Source: Desulfurivibrio alkaliphilus AHT 2 (lineage in GTDB: Bacteria; Desulfobacterota; Desulfobulbia; Desulfobulbales; Desulfurivibrionaceae). Taken from it: 64,000 bases of DNA. The stretch is from positions 248,001 to 312,000 of the forward strand of contig NC_014216.1 of assembly GCF_000092205.1 (NCBI RefSeq). Reading direction: 5' to 3'. The position numbers and the translations under genes were made by a program. Under the pieces are notes generated by a model. It searched no databases. It was given only the letters and a program-made list of their open reading frames with translations, and was not told the origin of the DNA. Shown here one piece after another: positions 9,350 through 60,843 of the stretch (positions are counted from its first letter, which is position 1; every line of letters begins with the position of its first letter).

Positions 9350-11935
9350 ATGCTGACCCGCTGGTCCCTGGCGCTGGGCGGCCTGGTGCAGGGGGTTGGG
9401 TTCAGGCCCTTTGTTTACCGGCTGGCCCGGCAACACGCCCTGGCCGGCCGGGTGTGCAACAGTGCCGCCGGGGTGGAAATCGAGCTTGAAGGCCCCCGGC
9501 CACGGCTGGTCGCTTTTCTTGACGATCTGCAGCGGCAGGCGCCCCCGGCGGCGGTGATCGAGCACCTGGAGCGTCGGGAGTTGCCTCCGGTCGGGGAGCA
9601 GGGGTTTGTGATCGCCGATACCCAGTGCGGCGGCCCGCCGGTGGCCGGAGTGGTACCAGACCTGGCGGTCTGTGCCGATTGCCTTGCTGAAATGCTGGAC
9701 CCGGCCGACCGCCGCTACCTGTACCCTTTCATAAACTGCACCAACTGCGGCCCCCGTTACACCATCATCGAAAAAATCCCCTATGACCGCCCCCATACCA
9801 CCATGCGGGTCTTCACCATGTGCCGGCGCTGCCAGGCCGAATACGACGACCCCGCCAGCCGCCGCTTCCATGCCCAGCCCAATGCCTGCCCGGACTGCGG
9901 CCCCGCTCTGGCCCTGGTTTCCTTAAACCAACAGCGGCAAGATAAGGCTCCGCCACCGCTGGCCGCCGGCCCGTCAGCCGTGGCCGAGACCCGCCGCCGC
10001 TTGCTGGCCGGGGAGATTGTCGCCATAAAAGGTATTGGCGGTTTTCATCTGGCGGTGAATGGTGCCGATCAGGCGGCGGTGAAGCGGTTACGGCGGCGCA
10101 AGGGGCGGCCGGACAAGCCCCTGGCCCTGATGGTTCGCGACCTGGCCACCGCCCGGGGGTTGGTGCAACTGGGGCCGATGGAGGAAAACCTGCTGGTTTC
10201 CCCCGCTCGCCCCATTGTCCTGGCGCTCCGGCAAGCGGCGGCGTTGCCGGTGGCGGCGGCGGTGGCCCCGGGAAACCGGCGCCTTGGCCTGATGCTGGCT
10301 TATGCCCCCCTGCACCACCTGCTGCTGGATTCCGAGTTGCCGCTGCTGGTGATGACCAGCGCCAATCCCAGCAGCGAGCCGCTTTGTATCGATAACGACG
10401 AAGCCTGCCGCCGCCTGTCGAGTATTGCCGATGCCGTGCTGCTCCATGATAGGGCAATCGTGCGGGGCAACGATGATTCGGTGATCATGCAGGGACCCGT
10501 CAAAGTCATTGGTTGTGGCACCGGGGTGGGGGCCGCTAATCCCGGTAGCGGCTCATTCTCGGCGGGCATCCTGCCCGCCTCCGAGGTGCCGGCAGCCTCC
10601 TGCGCGTCCATGCGCCCGGCTGCCGGCAAACCCGCCGCTACCGGGATAGGCGCCCCCCGTCCAAGTTCAACTTTGACGTTGCCCTGGGTGATCATGGCCG
10701 GCAACGACCGGCACCCGGGGGCGGCGCCGCTGGTTATCCGCCGGGGCCGGGGCTATGCCCCTGGGCTGCTGCCTTTTTCACACCGGGGGGCGGCGGTGCT
10801 GGCGGTGGGTGGTGAGCTGAAAAACACCGTTTGTCTGGCCGCCGACGGCCGGGCGGTGATCAGCCAGCACCTGGGGGATCTGCAAAACCTGGAGAGTTAT
10901 CGCGTTTTTGGTCAAACCATTGCCGATTTGTCGCAACTGTTTGCCATTCAGCCGCAAGTGGTGGCTTATGATCTGCACCCCGACTATCTGGCTTCCCGCT
11001 GGGCCCGGCAGTGGGCGGCCGAACAGGGCCTGCCGGCCGTGGCGGTGCAGCACCACCATGCCCACCTGGCCGCCTGCCTGGCGGAAAATGAACACCAGGG
11101 TCCGGCCCTGGGGTTGATTTTAGACGGCACCGGTTATGGCCCGGACGGCAGCATCTGGGGAGGGGAGATTCTGCTGGGGGATGCCGGCGGCTTTAGCCGC
11201 TGGGGCCATTTGGAAACCATGCCGCTGCCCGGCGGTGATTTGGCGGTCCGGCAGCCCTGGCGAGCCGCCTTGGGGTTTCTGTATCAGGCCTTTGCCGGGG
11301 ACATCCCCCCGTTACCCTTCTTGGCCGAGTTGCAGGCTGCCGACAAGGTGGACTGGCAGGCGCTGCTCCCCCCGTTGCGGCAGAACATCAACTGCCCGCG
11401 CACCAGCAGTTGCGGGCGCCTGTTTGATGCCGTGGCCGCCATGGCCGGTGGCTGCCAGAAGATCAGCTACGAGGCCCAGGCCGCCGTGGAACTGATGCAG
11501 GCTGCCGACGGCCTGCAAGGCCCGCCCTTTGCTTATCGACTGATCGAAAACAAGGTGACGGAGTACGGTTTCCACGGGGCAGGCGGGCCCGGGGTGCTCA
11601 TGCAACTCAGTCCGTTGGTTTGCGAGGTGGCTGCGGCGGTGTCAGCCGGAGCGGGGCTTACGGAAATAAGTCGCCGTTTTCATGCCACCCTGGTAGATAT
11701 GTTTACGGCGGCCCTGGTCACCGCCGCCACGGCAACCGGCATCAAAACGGTGGCCCTGGCCGGCGGCGTGATGCAAAATGAGGTTTTGCTGGCCGGCTTA
11801 AAGGACAGTCTGGCCCAGGCCGGTTTGGCGGCCATGCTGCCCCGGCGCCTGCCGTCCAACGACGGCGGCCTGGCCTACGGCCAGGCGGTGGTGGCGGCAA
11901 CCGTAAGCGAACAGCCGCACCGCATCTTCGGGTGA
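9350..11935 (+). CDS. hypF: Carbamoyltransferase HypF with an internal palindromic insertion and a repeat-derived C-terminus
   Basis: HypF makes the carbamoyl group that becomes the cyanide ligands of the [NiFe] centre. ATG 9350 follows GGGGAG by a few bases. In order the protein has an acylphosphatase domain (QGVGFRPFVYRLA), two C4 zinc fingers (CADC...CTNC, CRRC...CPDC), a YrdC-like domain, and a Kae1-like domain (QHHHAHLAAC, GGVMQNEVL). At 861 residues it is about 100 longer than usual HypF. About 69 of these come from an in-frame palindromic insertion between DDSV and PLVIRRGRGYAP (residues ~380-448). The last ten (VSEQPHRIFG) and the stop codon come from a family A repeat. All catalytic motifs remain, so activity is plausible but untested. 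Confidence 0.93.
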   Translation: MLTRWSLALGGLVQGVGFRPFVYRLARQHALAGRVCNSAAGVEIELEGPRPRLVAFLDDLQRQAPPAAVIEHLERRELPPVGEQGFVIADTQCGGPPVAGVVPDLAVCADCLAEMLDPADRRYLYPFINCTNCGPRYTIIEKIPYDRPHTTMRVFTMCRRCQAEYDDPASRRFHAQPNACPDCGPALALVSLNQQRQDKAPPPLAAGPSAVAETRRRLLAGEIVAIKGIGGFHLAVNGADQAAVKRLRRRKGRPDKPLALMVRDLATARGLVQLGPMEENLLVSPARPIVLALRQAAALPVAAAVAPGNRRLGLMLAYAPLHHLLLDSELPLLVMTSANPSSEPLCIDNDEACRRLSSIADAVLLHDRAIVRGNDDSVIMQGPVKVIGCGTGVGAANPGSGSFSAGILPASEVPAASCASMRPAAGKPAATGIGAPRPSSTLTLPWVIMAGNDRHPGAAPLVIRRGRGYAPGLLPFSHRGAAVLAVGGELKNTVCLAADGRAVISQHLGDLQNLESYRVFGQTIADLSQLFAIQPQVVAYDLHPDYLASRWARQWAAEQGLPAVAVQHHHAHLAACLAENEHQGPALGLILDGTGYGPDGSIWGGEILLGDAGGFSRWGHLETMPLPGGDLAVRQPWRAALGFLYQAFAGDIPPLPFLAELQAADKVDWQALLPPLRQNINCPRTSSCGRLFDAVAAMAGGCQKISYEAQAAVELMQAADGLQGPPFAYRLIENKVTEYGFHGAGGPGVLMQLSPLVCEVAAAVSAGAGLTEISRRFHATLVDMFTAALVTAATATGIKTVALAGGVMQNEVLLAGLKDSLAQAGLAAMLPRRLPSNDGGLAYGQAVVAATVSEQPHRIFG
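10480..10696 (+). repeat. Family C cloverleaf palindromic insertion inside hypF
   Basis: The 10-bp sequence GGTGATCATG occurs at 10480-10489 and again at 10687-10696, exactly 207 bp (69 codons) apart, like a target-site duplication. Between them are nested inverted repeats. Outer arms lie at 10483-10506 and 10670-10693 (imperfect). Middle arms at 10528-10551 and 10635-10658 share TCCCGGTAGCGG with its complement. Two internal hairpins follow: 10561-10579 (GGCGGGCA/TGCCCGCC) and 10588-10627 (GCCGGCAGCC/GGCTGCCGGC). The whole stretch stays open in the hypF frame. Confidence 0.85.
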
Positions 11936-12055
11936 TCAGCCAGGCTTACGTACAGGGGGTACGCTGCGCCTGGCTGCTTACCCAAACCTGCGGCGCGGCT
12001 GTTCGCTTACGGCCCGTTAAACCTGTAGGTTAGTACCCCTGGTGAACGGTTGCCC
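11903..12055 (+). repeat. Family A palindromic repeat, full-length copy at the hypF 3' end
   Basis: This is a 153-bp element. Perfect 16-bp arms GTAAGCGAACAGCCGC (11903-11918) and its complement (11995-12010) enclose an imperfect long hairpin with an inner CGTAC/GTACG stem. A tail of about 45 bp ends in GGTGAACGGTTGCCC. Its TGA (11933-11935) is the hypF stop. It has the same length and order as the copy inside pepN at 60235-60387. Confidence 0.9.
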
Positions 12056-12252
12056 GAAACTTATAATGACAATGTAACTGATCACGGGATACCCCCTGCG
12101 TGACGATCTGCTAAGGAGTAAGCGGTCACGGGGCACCCCAGATTGCGGCAAGCAGACCGGCGCAGCGTACACCGGGTACTCAAGCCGGGCTGATCGCCGC
12201 AAGGTGGGGTGCCCCGTGATCGCTTACATGACAATCAATCGGGAGTGAGCGC
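11936..12252. other. hypF-hypC intergenic region made almost wholly of repeats
   Basis: The 317 bp hold the rest of a family A copy and a full family B copy, leaving only about 25 bp of other sequence before hypC. No promoter is evident. The hyp cluster may be transcribed through the repeats, or their hairpins may separate hypABF from hypCDE. Confidence 0.7.
12118..12227. repeat. Family B palindromic repeat (110 bp) upstream of hypC
   Basis: Thirty-base imperfect terminal arms begin GTAAGCGGTCACGGGGCACC (12118) and end in the near-perfect complement closing in GATCGCTTAC (12227). The core (GCGCAGCGTAC, GGGCTGATCGCC) matches the family A core in inverted orientation, so B looks like a relative of A with different arms. 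A loose extra arm, GATCACGGGATACCCC, lies at about 12080. Confidence 0.8.
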
Positions 12253-12552
12253 ATGTGTTTGGCGGTACCGGGAAAAGTGGTGGAGATCTTCGAGGAAAAC
12301 GGTTTGAAGATGGGGCATATCGACTATGCCGGGGCGATCAGCCGGGCCTGCCTGGAGTATGTGCCGGAGATCCGCCTTGGGGATTATACCGTGGTCCATG
12401 CCGGTTTTGCCCTGTCCATCCTGGATGAGGAAGAGGCGGCCAAAAGTTTTGCCGCCTGGCGTGAGTTGCAGGCGGCAGCGGCCCGGGAGGGAGTGGATCT
12501 CTTCGGTCGCCCGCTGGCCGATGCCGATGCCGATGCCGATGAACAGGAGTGA
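12253..12552 (+). CDS. hypC: Hydrogenase assembly chaperone HypC
   Basis: HypC (HypC/HybG/HupF family) carries the Fe(CN)2CO unit together with HypD and binds the hydrogenase large subunit. The N-terminal [12 protein letters not shown] contains the essential Cys2. The product is 99 residues, slightly long. The extra C-terminus is an ADADADAD tract encoded by four perfect GCCGAT units (12517-12540). ATG 12253 follows GGGAGTGAGC. hypD starts 8 bp after the stop. Confidence 0.94.
12517..12540 (+). repeat. GCCGAT x4 hexanucleotide tandem repeat in hypC
   Basis: There are four perfect 6-bp units. Change in copy number would add or remove Ala-Asp pairs at the HypC C-terminus without shifting the frame. 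Confidence 0.85.
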
Positions 12553-55522: not shown

Positions 55523-55608
55523 TCAGCCTCTCTTGTGGGGACTTGTTTGGTAGAGGAAGGTTACGGCCCGTTAAGTCTACAGGTTGCTGGCCCTGGTGAA
55601 TGGTTGCA
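55520..55608 (+). repeat. Family A palindromic repeat, internally deleted copy before mltD
   Basis: TGATCAGCC at the left matches the repeat core. The right part, TTACGGCCCGTTAAGTCTAC, AGGTTGCTGG and CCCTGGTGAATGGTTGC, is the family A tail. The arms in between are missing. The element spans the stop of the GGDEF gene and ends ten bases before the mltD ATG. Confidence 0.6.
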
Positions 55609-57939: not shown

Positions 57940-60843
57940 TTGTCCGCCGACAGCGAACTTCCCCGGCCGGTACTGCTTGCCGAGTACCGGCCGCCGTTTT
58001 TTTTGCTTGATGAGGTCAACCTGCAGGTTGAGCTTTTTGCCGATCATGCCCTGGTCCGTTCCTCTCTTTGCTTGCGCCGTAATCCGGCGGTTGACGATGC
58101 GGAAATGCTGGTGCTGGATGGCGAAGAGCTGGAGCTGCTGGAGTTGCGACTGGACGGCCAAGCGTTGCCGCCGGAGCGTTACCGGCTGGAAGGGGTCGGC
58201 AACCGGGGCCGGCTGGTGATCCCGACCCCCCCGGTGCAGTGCACCCTGGAGACGGTGAGCCGCATCTATCCTGCCGCCAATACGGCGCTTGAAGGTTTAT
58301 ATCGCTCCGGTTCGATGTTCTGCACCCAGTGCGAACCGGAAGGTTTCCGTCGGATCACCTGGTACCCGGATCGGCCCGATGTCCTGGCGCCCTTTACGGT
58401 GACCATCAGCGCCGACCGCCAAACCTGCCCGGTTTTGCTGGCCGGGGGGAATCCCGTCGGCCGCGGCGAACTGCCGGAGGGGCGCCACTGGGCCTCCTTC
58501 AAAGACCCCTTTCCCAAGCCCTCCTATCTCTTCGCCCTGGTGGCCGGTGATCTGGTGGGGGTTCACGACCGCTTCACCACCGCTTCGGGGCGGCAGGTGG
58601 CCCTGGCCATTTACGTGGAGGCCCACAATCGGGATAAGTGCGACCATGCCATGGCGGCGCTGAAAAAGGCCATGCGCTGGGATGAGGAGACCTTCGGCCT
58701 GGAGTACGATCTTGATCATTACCTGATCGTGGCGGTGGATGATTTCACCATGGGGGCCATGGAGAACAAGGGGCTCAATATCTTTAACGCCCGCTATGTA
58801 CTGGCCCGCCCGGAAAGCGCCACCGATGATGATTTTGAAAACATCGAAGCGGTGATCGCCCATGAATATTTTCACAACTGGACCGGCAACCGGGTAACCT
58901 GCCGGGACTGGTTTCAGTTGAGCCTCAAGGAAGGCTTGACCGTCTTCCGGGATCAGCTCTTCAGCCAGCAGCTGCATTCCGCGGGGGTAAAAAGAATCAA
59001 CGACGTGCGGCTGCTGCGCGAACAGCAGTTCGTCGAGGATGCCGGCCCCCTGGCCCATCCGGTAAGGCCGGAGTCTTACCTGGAAATCAACAATTTCTAT
59101 ACCCTGACCGTCTACGAAAAGGGCGCCGAGCTGGTGCGGATGCTCCACACCTTGTTGGGGCCGGCCGGCTTCCGGGCCGGGTTGCGGCTTTACCTCAGCC
59201 GCCATGATGGTTCAGCGGCGACCATCGAGGATTTTCTGGCCGCCATGGCCGAGGCCGGGGGGCGTGAGCTGGGCGCTTTTGCCCGCTGGTATGCCCGGGC
59301 CGGGACCCCGCGGTTGCAGATTACCGACGACTATGATCCCGCCGCAGGCTGTTACCGGCTGCGGGTGGTCCAGGAAATGCCGGTGCCGGCAACCACCGGC
59401 GGCGAATGCTGCGATAATGCTCAGGGGGTGGCTGAGGCGCCCCCTGCCTCGGAGGGCCGGCCGGAACAGCCTCGGCCGGTTGCGGAGGGGCGCGAAAATT
59501 TACCGCTGCTGCTGCCCCTGGCGGTGGGCCTGTTGAGCCCGGCGGGCGAGGAAGTGGCCGCAGAGTTGCTGGAATCGACCGAGTGGGAGCAGGTTTTTGA
59601 ATTTACCGGGCTCCATGCCCGCCCGGTTCCTTCGCTGTTGCGCGGGTTTTCAGCCCCAGTGCGGTTGACGTATGACTACCGCGACGAGCAACTGGGGCTG
59701 TTGCTGGCCCACGACACCGACCCTTTTTGCCGCTGGGAAGCCGGCCAGCGTTTAAGCGGCAGCCTGATTTTGGAGCTGGCCGGTCGTTGGCAAGCCCGGG
59801 AATATTTGCAACTGCCCGGAGGCTTTGTCGACACCTACCGGCAATTGCTGGCCCGGCTGCCTGGCCTGGAAGACAAGTCGTTTGCCGCCCTGCTGGTGGC
59901 CCTGCCCACCGAGGAGTACCTGGCCGAGCAGATGGCCCTTATCGATGTTGAGGCGCTCCACACCGCCCGAGAGTTTGTGCGCCGGGAACTGGCAGTGGCT
60001 CTGCGGCCGCGCTGGGAAGAAATTTATCGGAGCTTTCCCGTTGCCACCGAAGGGGAGGGCACCTATGATCCCCGTTTGGCCGGGGGGCGGCGTTTGCGCA
60101 ATCAGGCCCTTTTCTTTTTGCTGGCCCTGGCCGATGATCGGGAGCTTATCGCCCTGGCCAGGCAGCAGTTTTTTCAGGCCGGCAATATGACTGACAGCCT
60201 GGCCGCCTTGCGGGGGCTGGTGCATGCCGCCGCCGTAAGCGAACAGCCGCACCGCATCTTCGGGCGATCAGCCAGGCTTACGTACCTGGGGTACGCTGCG
60301 CCTGTCTGCTTGCCCGAACCTGCGGCACGGCTGAACGCTTACGGCCCGTTAGAGCGGCAGTTTAGTACCCCTGATGAACGGTTACCCGCGGCCCGGGCGG
60401 TGGCGGCAGAGGCGCTGGAGGAATTTGCCGCCCGCTGGGGCCATGACCCGCTGGTGCTGGATAAGTGGTTCACCGTCCAGGCCACCGCTCCCTCCCCGGA
60501 CACTTTGGAGAGGGTAGAGGCGTTAATGGCCCACCCGGCCTTTCGGCTGAGTAACCCCAACCGGGTGCGGGCCCTGATCGGGGCCTTTGCCGCCGCTAAT
60601 CCGGTGGCTTTTCACCGGGCCGACGGCGCCGGTTACCGTTTCCTGGCCGCCCAAATCATGGCCCTGGACTCCGTCAATCCCCAGGTGGCCGCCCGGCTGG
60701 CGGCCCGTTTCAGCCGCTGGCGGCGCTTTGCGGGACCACGCCGGGAGTTGATGCGGGCGGAACTGGAAAAAATCGCCACGGCGCCCAAGCTCTCCCGCGA
60801 TGTTTATGAAATGGTGAGCAAAAGCCTGGGCAGCCAGGCTTAG
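57940..60843 (+). CDS. pepN: Aminopeptidase N with an in-frame palindromic repeat insertion
   Basis: The 967-residue M1 zinc metallopeptidase has GAMENKGL (about residue 272), HEYFHNW (HExxH, about 308-312) and the distal Glu in LKEGLTVFRDQ. E. coli PepN has 870 residues. Most of the excess is a 51-residue insert at about 766-816 (VSEQPHRIFGRSARL...), encoded exactly by a 153-bp family A repeat in the C-terminal helical domain. About 25 extra residues lie near 490-515. The start is TTG 57940 with AAGGAG. The catalytic core is untouched, so the enzyme may still work. Confidence 0.93.
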   Translation: MSADSELPRPVLLAEYRPPFFLLDEVNLQVELFADHALVRSSLCLRRNPAVDDAEMLVLDGEELELLELRLDGQALPPERYRLEGVGNRGRLVIPTPPVQCTLETVSRIYPAANTALEGLYRSGSMFCTQCEPEGFRRITWYPDRPDVLAPFTVTISADRQTCPVLLAGGNPVGRGELPEGRHWASFKDPFPKPSYLFALVAGDLVGVHDRFTTASGRQVALAIYVEAHNRDKCDHAMAALKKAMRWDEETFGLEYDLDHYLIVAVDDFTMGAMENKGLNIFNARYVLARPESATDDDFENIEAVIAHEYFHNWTGNRVTCRDWFQLSLKEGLTVFRDQLFSQQLHSAGVKRINDVRLLREQQFVEDAGPLAHPVRPESYLEINNFYTLTVYEKGAELVRMLHTLLGPAGFRAGLRLYLSRHDGSAATIEDFLAAMAEAGGRELGAFARWYARAGTPRLQITDDYDPAAGCYRLRVVQEMPVPATTGGECCDNAQGVAEAPPASEGRPEQPRPVAEGRENLPLLLPLAVGLLSPAGEEVAAELLESTEWEQVFEFTGLHARPVPSLLRGFSAPVRLTYDYRDEQLGLLLAHDTDPFCRWEAGQRLSGSLILELAGRWQAREYLQLPGGFVDTYRQLLARLPGLEDKSFAALLVALPTEEYLAEQMALIDVEALHTAREFVRRELAVALRPRWEEIYRSFPVATEGEGTYDPRLAGGRRLRNQALFFLLALADDRELIALARQQFFQAGNMTDSLAALRGLVHAAAVSEQPHRIFGRSARLTYLGYAAPVCLPEPAARLNAYGPLERQFSTPDERLPAARAVAAEALEEFAARWGHDPLVLDKWFTVQATAPSPDTLERVEALMAHPAFRLSNPNRVRALIGAFAAANPVAFHRADGAGYRFLAAQIMALDSVNPQVAARLAARFSRWRRFAGPRRELMRAELEKIATAPKLSRDVYEMVSKSLGSQA
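60235..60387 (+). repeat. Family A palindromic repeat, full-length copy inside pepN
   Basis: This copy is 153 bp and begins GTAAGCGAACAGCCGCACCG, the same start as the copy at 11903. Arms, inner CGTAC/GTACG stem and tail (ending GATGAACGGTTACCC) are in the same order. The hypF-terminal copy has TGA after TTCGGG; here it is CGA, so the pepN frame reads through. The length is exactly 51 codons. Confidence 0.92.

Follow-up and report, generated by a model that had tools for sequence, protein, structure and literature searches.

Palindromic repeats that supply genes with stop codons are already known, as passages on the GTAG-tagged REPs, the Coxiella QMITEs and the enterobacterial RU-1 element attest. 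The GTAG ends of the GTAG-tagged REPs "often provide" the TAG stop of flanking ORFs, and conv- and uni-REPs lie mostly near ORF 3' ends, with some of them in frame inside ORFs (passages of PMC3733652). QMITE1 and QMITE2 overlap gene 3' ends by 1–50 bp, and the affected functional annotated genes were all struck at their 3' ends, for a reason stated as unknown; QMITE2, which is flanked by direct repeats of 7–9 bp and occurs in full-size and short, REP-like forms, encodes the tail of enhC in one strain (passages of PMC5896051). In one of the RU-1/ERIC fusions, RU-1 joined an amidase gene at its 3' end; the normal stop of the gene was lost, and a point mutation in the repeat made a new one (passages of PMC2759123). 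The Rickettsia palindromic elements are in-frame inserts in genes for conserved proteins (passages of the review PMC2229807).

By these precedents, the repeat of Desulfurivibrio alkaliphilus AHT 2 described here, repeat A, belongs to an already known sort. Like the GTAG REPs of PMC3733652, as its passages describe them, it is a palindromic repeat that stands behind genes and supplies the stop with its end, but those REPs measure 20–40 bp, whereas repeat A is about 151 bp long, has GTAA ends, is flanked by 8-bp target duplications and sits asymmetrically, left versus right, with respect to the gene; a term search of the accessible text of that paper returned neither Desulfurivibrio nor GTAA. 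The QMITEs differ in sequence and host, and the passages of PMC5896051 hold no tally of frame or orientation. The RU-1 amidase case tells the same story as hypF below, but it concerns a different element and a single case, and genome-wide docking is absent from the passages of PMC2759123. The Rickettsia elements resemble the repeat A copies in pepN, lnt and a helicase gene in being in-frame inserts, although their target duplication is listed as unknown in the passages of PMC2229807 and is 8 bp here. The part for which no precedent was found in the REP, QMITE, RU-1 and Rickettsia passages is one-sided docking on stop codons with an internal control.

The stretch analysed, hereafter the window, comprises 64,000 bp (genome positions 248001–312000) of the 3,097,763-bp, single-contig genome, and its features are collected in Table 1. 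A sequence-only reading of this DNA had noted that in the hypF copy TTCGGG is followed by TGA, leaving a C-terminal VSEQPHRIFG, and this holds: the protein ends ...GQAVVAAT-VSEQPHRIFG-TGA, its ten final codons and stop being positions 1–33 of the repeat. The same reading proposed that the element replaced the native hypF 3' end and supplies its stop, a proposal that comparison with relatives supports. The hypF of Desulfurivibrio sp. AMeS2, the nearest relative found, ends GQAVAAAAQWQQVNGK and a stop, without the repeat, and the end in relative G002 is identical; the VSEQPHRIFG tail was found in none of the relatives whose hypF ends were read, which carry other short tails. When the flanks of the element are rejoined, no stop is met before the start of hypC, which, together with a target duplication of only 5/8, shows the native end to be incomplete. 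The stop of hypF is thus supplied by the repeat, and its native 3' end is gone.

Table 1. Window coordinates of hypF, pepN and the repeats associated with them
Feature	Position	Strand	Remarks
hypF (carbamoyltransferase HypF), 880 aa	9293..11935	+	Pfam HypF_C_2, zf-HYPF, Acylphosphatase, Sua5
Left 8-bp flank of the hypF copy, CGGCAACC	11895..11902	+	decayed target duplication, 5/8 match
Repeat A copy at hypF 3' end, 151 bp, GTAAGCG...CGGTTGC	11903..12053	+	long hairpin about nt 1–108, then 43-nt tail
hypF TGA stop	11933..11935	+	repeat positions 31–33; position 31 is C in 99 of the best 100 of 131 copies
Second in-frame stop (TAG) in the hypF copy	12026..12028	+	31 codons past TGA; element offset 123
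Right 8-bp flank of the hypF copy, CCGAAACT	12054..12061	+	
Second MITE family, 154 bp, GTAACTG...CGCTTAC	12074..12227	+	between the first MITE and hypC
Perfect 8-bp duplication around second MITE, ATGACAAT	12066–12073 and 12228–12235		
Presumably hypC, so named from the operon; gene after hypF	12253..12552	+	the gene after hypF in relatives matches it
Right-end fragment of repeat A	55561..55605	+	38 bases downstream of GGDEF stop
pepN (M1 aminopeptidase), 967 aa	57940..60843	+	contains in-frame repeat A insert
pepN target duplication, left copy, CCGCCGCC	60227..60234	+	right copy CCGCGGCC at 60386–60393, 7/8
Repeat A copy read through in pepN, 151 bp	60235..60385	+	with 8-bp duplication adds 159 bp = 53 codons

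Repeat A was characterized genome-wide with a 29-base core in which the critical base was replaced by N. At up to three mismatches this core matches 131 sites, 66 forward and 65 reverse, while a reversed control matches none; the counts given below refer to the best 100 of the 131, fewest mismatches first. Seventy of these 100 are long copies (41 of exactly 151 bp, 18 of 150 bp), 28 consist of the hairpin only, and two are unclear. An 8-bp duplication flanks 29 of the long copies perfectly and another 17 at 7/8, so that 46/70 reach at least 7/8, a level reached by about 1% when the right flanks are shuffled. Repeat A is thus a MITE, a non-autonomous transposon, with GTAA ends: it is short (typically 150–151 bp), multi-copy and devoid of transposase coding capacity, and it is bounded by 8-bp duplications and by short, imperfect terminal inverted repeats, whose consensus is GTAATCGTTCAGCA on the left and GTAACCGTTCACCA on the right. 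Its hairpin of about 108 nt and its GTAA end set it apart from REPs of the GTAG/CGTC type, which are palindromes of 20–40 bp. As RNA, the hypF copy has a fold z of −7.4; an Rfam scan of the window returned tRNA only. Three copies (L187, L220 and L248, at genome positions 235989, 1379686 and 3090811) have an altered loop, with GGAGGGGACA where other copies usually have GTACAGGGGG; they may form a subfamily or reflect a nested insertion. In relative G003 many contigs start or stop inside the MITE (loci L146, L156 and others), its assembly having been broken by the repeat.

Most copies lie on gene stop codons, with the left end towards the gene. Neighbouring genes, identified from codon scores with 33 long ORFs of the window as the training set and not by annotation, provide 115 gene ends beside 86 of the best 100 of 131 copies. 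For 66 of the 100, a stop codon begins between −11 and +1 of the element edge, against an expectation of 13–14% of permitted window positions (intergenic, or within the last bases of genes, with insertion otherwise assumed even). Inside the 8-bp target there is a weak A/T preference, which is also seen at sites away from stops, and weighting by a base-weight matrix of the target puts the expectation at 15%; the idea that docking is due wholly to a specific target sequence is therefore rejected. Docking is one-sided: 58 of the gene ends with docked stops face the left end of the element and 10 the right end, again among the best 100 of 131. Left-facing gene ends have 31 stops at −11 to −3 and 6 at −60 to −12, and right-facing ones 5 and 18, respectively (Fisher p 2e-6); the median spacer following a gene in the window measures about 50 bp. 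Relatives show docking at 21 of 36 examined loci, with 9/10 in G001, 6/10 in G002, 5/10 in G013 and 1/2 in G027, and with 0/4 in G003, G016 and G029.

In 31 of the best 100 of 131 copies (32 gene ends) the stop is made by the element itself, 25 times as the TAA within GTAA, six times as TA/G and once as T/GA, the slash marking the junction. Where reading enters the element, the junction is in frame 1 in 26 of 34 cases (p 3e-7 under equal frames), hypF with its frame-0 junction being among the exceptions. Empty sites were rejoined wherever the duplication reached at least 6/8 (54 copies), native stops being reconstructed only where the duplication is clear, and the native stop then falls within −11 to +12 in 23/31 sense-side genes and in 6/23 genes on the other side. 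Coding loss at the element-made stops among these 54 is mostly short, the longest shift being a TA/G case with its native stop 106 bases away. Leaving hypF aside, 28 of 32 proteins with element-made stops match Pfam at E<=1e-5 and four do not; the matches include LytB, HisD (histidinol dehydrogenase), DapF (diaminopimelate epimerase), Tmk (thymidylate kinase), MoeA, an isocitrate/isopropylmalate dehydrogenase, a ribulose-phosphate epimerase, a carbamoyltransferase and an FtsQ-type POTRA protein, and the domain often reaches within a few residues of the protein end. Judging from these matches, the genes ended by the element are mostly real housekeeping genes. A repeat whose end carries a stop can insert into such genes harmlessly, and the 100 copies, with the right end as internal control, make a quantitative case for the puzzle posed by the QMITEs, namely why mobile palindromes occupy gene 3' ends.

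GTAA ends and 8-bp target duplications are traits of the IS66 family, and the MITE has both, although it lacks a transposase. IS66 elements begin GTAAGCGCTCAGCA, and their 14 terminal nucleotides are identical to those of three of the best 100 of 131 MITE copies, the consensus sharing fewer; GTAAGCGCTCA(G/A) ends are found on IS66 elements in two Desulfurivibrio genomes. From this resemblance of ends, we infer that an IS66-type transposase probably moved the MITE in trans. The IS66 element of this genome is about 1.5 kb long (L132:3532-5063, genome 2119031–2120562) and has a short transposase of 356 aa, whereas a 2.4-kb relative in G002 (L271:139-2560) has a frame open over 527 aa; in G004 the IS66 transposase is split or partial. 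An IS66 transposase was sought in every MITE-bearing genome, but none was found in G001, G003, G013 or G027, all of which bear the MITE and some of which are incomplete genomes. Literature searches returned no paper on IS66 with GTAA, nor any in which a MITE supplies a stop codon, and no word beginning "transpos" occurs in the accessible text of PMC5016858.

Taken together, we regard as probable an account in which a GTAA-ended MITE, mobilized in trans, landed in frame 0 in hypF, where a C-to-T change followed, and docked on stops elsewhere. A copy would have inserted near the hypF 3' end in reading frame 0, displacing the native end, and C-to-T at position 31 would then have closed the frame with TGA, leaving the ten-residue tail. 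Since the hypF TGA is present in no other copy among the best 100 of 131, the substitution most likely postdates the insertion. At targets containing a stop, the old stop would be preserved in the left copy of the 8-bp duplication, and at junctions in or just before a stop, in frame 1, the terminal GTAA would re-make it (NNG/TAA, TA/G). Intragenic inserts would persist for the most part close to the 3' end, in the one frame that makes GTAA an immediate stop, and rarely as whole in-frame inserts, as in pepN, lnt and the UvrD-type helicase gene. A gene entered in the wrong frame could thus be rescued by a single substitution (hypF) or by a wholly open frame (pepN). The weak duplication at hypF itself counts against this account, as do the MITE-bearing genomes in which the transposase was not found and the shortness of the enzyme in this one. 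As to why the copies dock, we favour two causes acting together: target preference, and selection that favours having a hairpin right behind the stop.

Selection by itself, to which we give somewhat less than even chances, would start from random insertion and remove nearly every copy, sparing those that follow closely on a stop and those shortly ahead of one whose reading frame lets GTAA end translation; the orientation bias would arise because, with the left end leading, a hairpin right behind the stop does no harm or stabilizes the mRNA. The near absence of copies that split gene interiors and the excess of frame-1 junctions agree with this, and REP hairpins are already known to lie shortly after genes (passages of PMC3733652). 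Selection against damage accounts for the frame bias but not for the tight clustering at the left end as against the spread at the right: distances to the right end are spread through the spacers and those to the left end crowd within 11 bp, which harmlessness alone does not predict.

Rather doubtful, in our judgment, is targeted insertion alone, in which the transposition complex would prefer gene 3' ends in one orientation, for example through a structure or process at the ends of translation or transcription. It accounts for the left-end clustering, which is tight, one-sided and repeated in congeners, but no agent for it is known; there is no fixed target sequence, the weak A/T preference does not account for the clustering, and we know of no IS66 behaviour of aiming at gene 3' ends. 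Bolder, and in our view unlikely, is the extension that some process linked to transcript 3' ends or translation termination directs transposition to stop codons in a single orientation, the GTAA end being an adaptation that re-makes the stop on arrival, a built-in device against damage to the host. Targeting and selection can be distinguished by experiment.

The sequence-only reading had instead held that one base decides whether the repeat ends or extends a protein. This describes the contrast between hypF, which the TGA closes, and pepN, where it is missing, but as a general device the T/C switch at position 31 is most improbable. Tabulating the base gave C in 99 and T in one (hypF) of the best 100 of 131 sites, so the family does not use the switch, and gene ends are mostly made by the TAA of the terminal GTAA, in another frame. 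Because the hypF copy holds a second in-frame stop (Table 1), the base sets the length of the tail there (10 versus about 41 residues) and not whether the protein terminates in the repeat.

It is hardly conceivable that hypF has its native tail and stop and resembles the repeat by coincidence: the 151 bp of the element are complete, begin exactly at the ten-residue tail and are up to 96.7% identical to another copy in the genome, and the relatives whose ends were read carry other tails. The hypF of G001 also terminates in a MITE copy of its own, with a different junction and frame (flanks GGTGGCCA/GGTGGCCG). A shared ancestral insertion is unlikely: the two copies are 72% identical, well below the identity within this genome (G000), and the junctions differ, so the insertions are read as separate events.

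The further suggestion that a repeat remnant, TGATCAGCC, ends the GGDEF gene fails, since this sequence occurs five times in the window, on both strands, and the 121 bases before 55561–55605 match the hairpin no better than shuffles (117/500 score as high). Alignment and shuffles thus reject a remnant at the gene end; the true right-end fragment lies downstream (Table 1).

The pepN copy, as had been read from the sequence, carries CGA at the position of the hypF stop, and its frame is open across all 151 bp and returns to pepN. The insert is absent from G001, G004, G009, G010 and G013. At the same spot, G002 has an insert of about 47 residues (L279, about 2250–2420), which was rejected as a MITE copy for want of any resemblance and which indicates that this loop tolerates insertions. 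Further whole-frame inserts are found in lnt (genome 536949) and in a gene for a UvrD-type helicase (843008, right end lost), and frame 0 is open from end to end in 28/70 long copies.

The second MITE family, which follows the hypF copy, showed no clear stop-codon docking among nine copies (the one in Table 1 and eight matching loci). Another palindromic repeat, unrelated to the MITE, lies in frame inside hypF (window 10505–10690, about residues 405–465); this stretch is absent from the alignments of most relatives, and 40 genome matches were returned for the repeat, several of them near full length.
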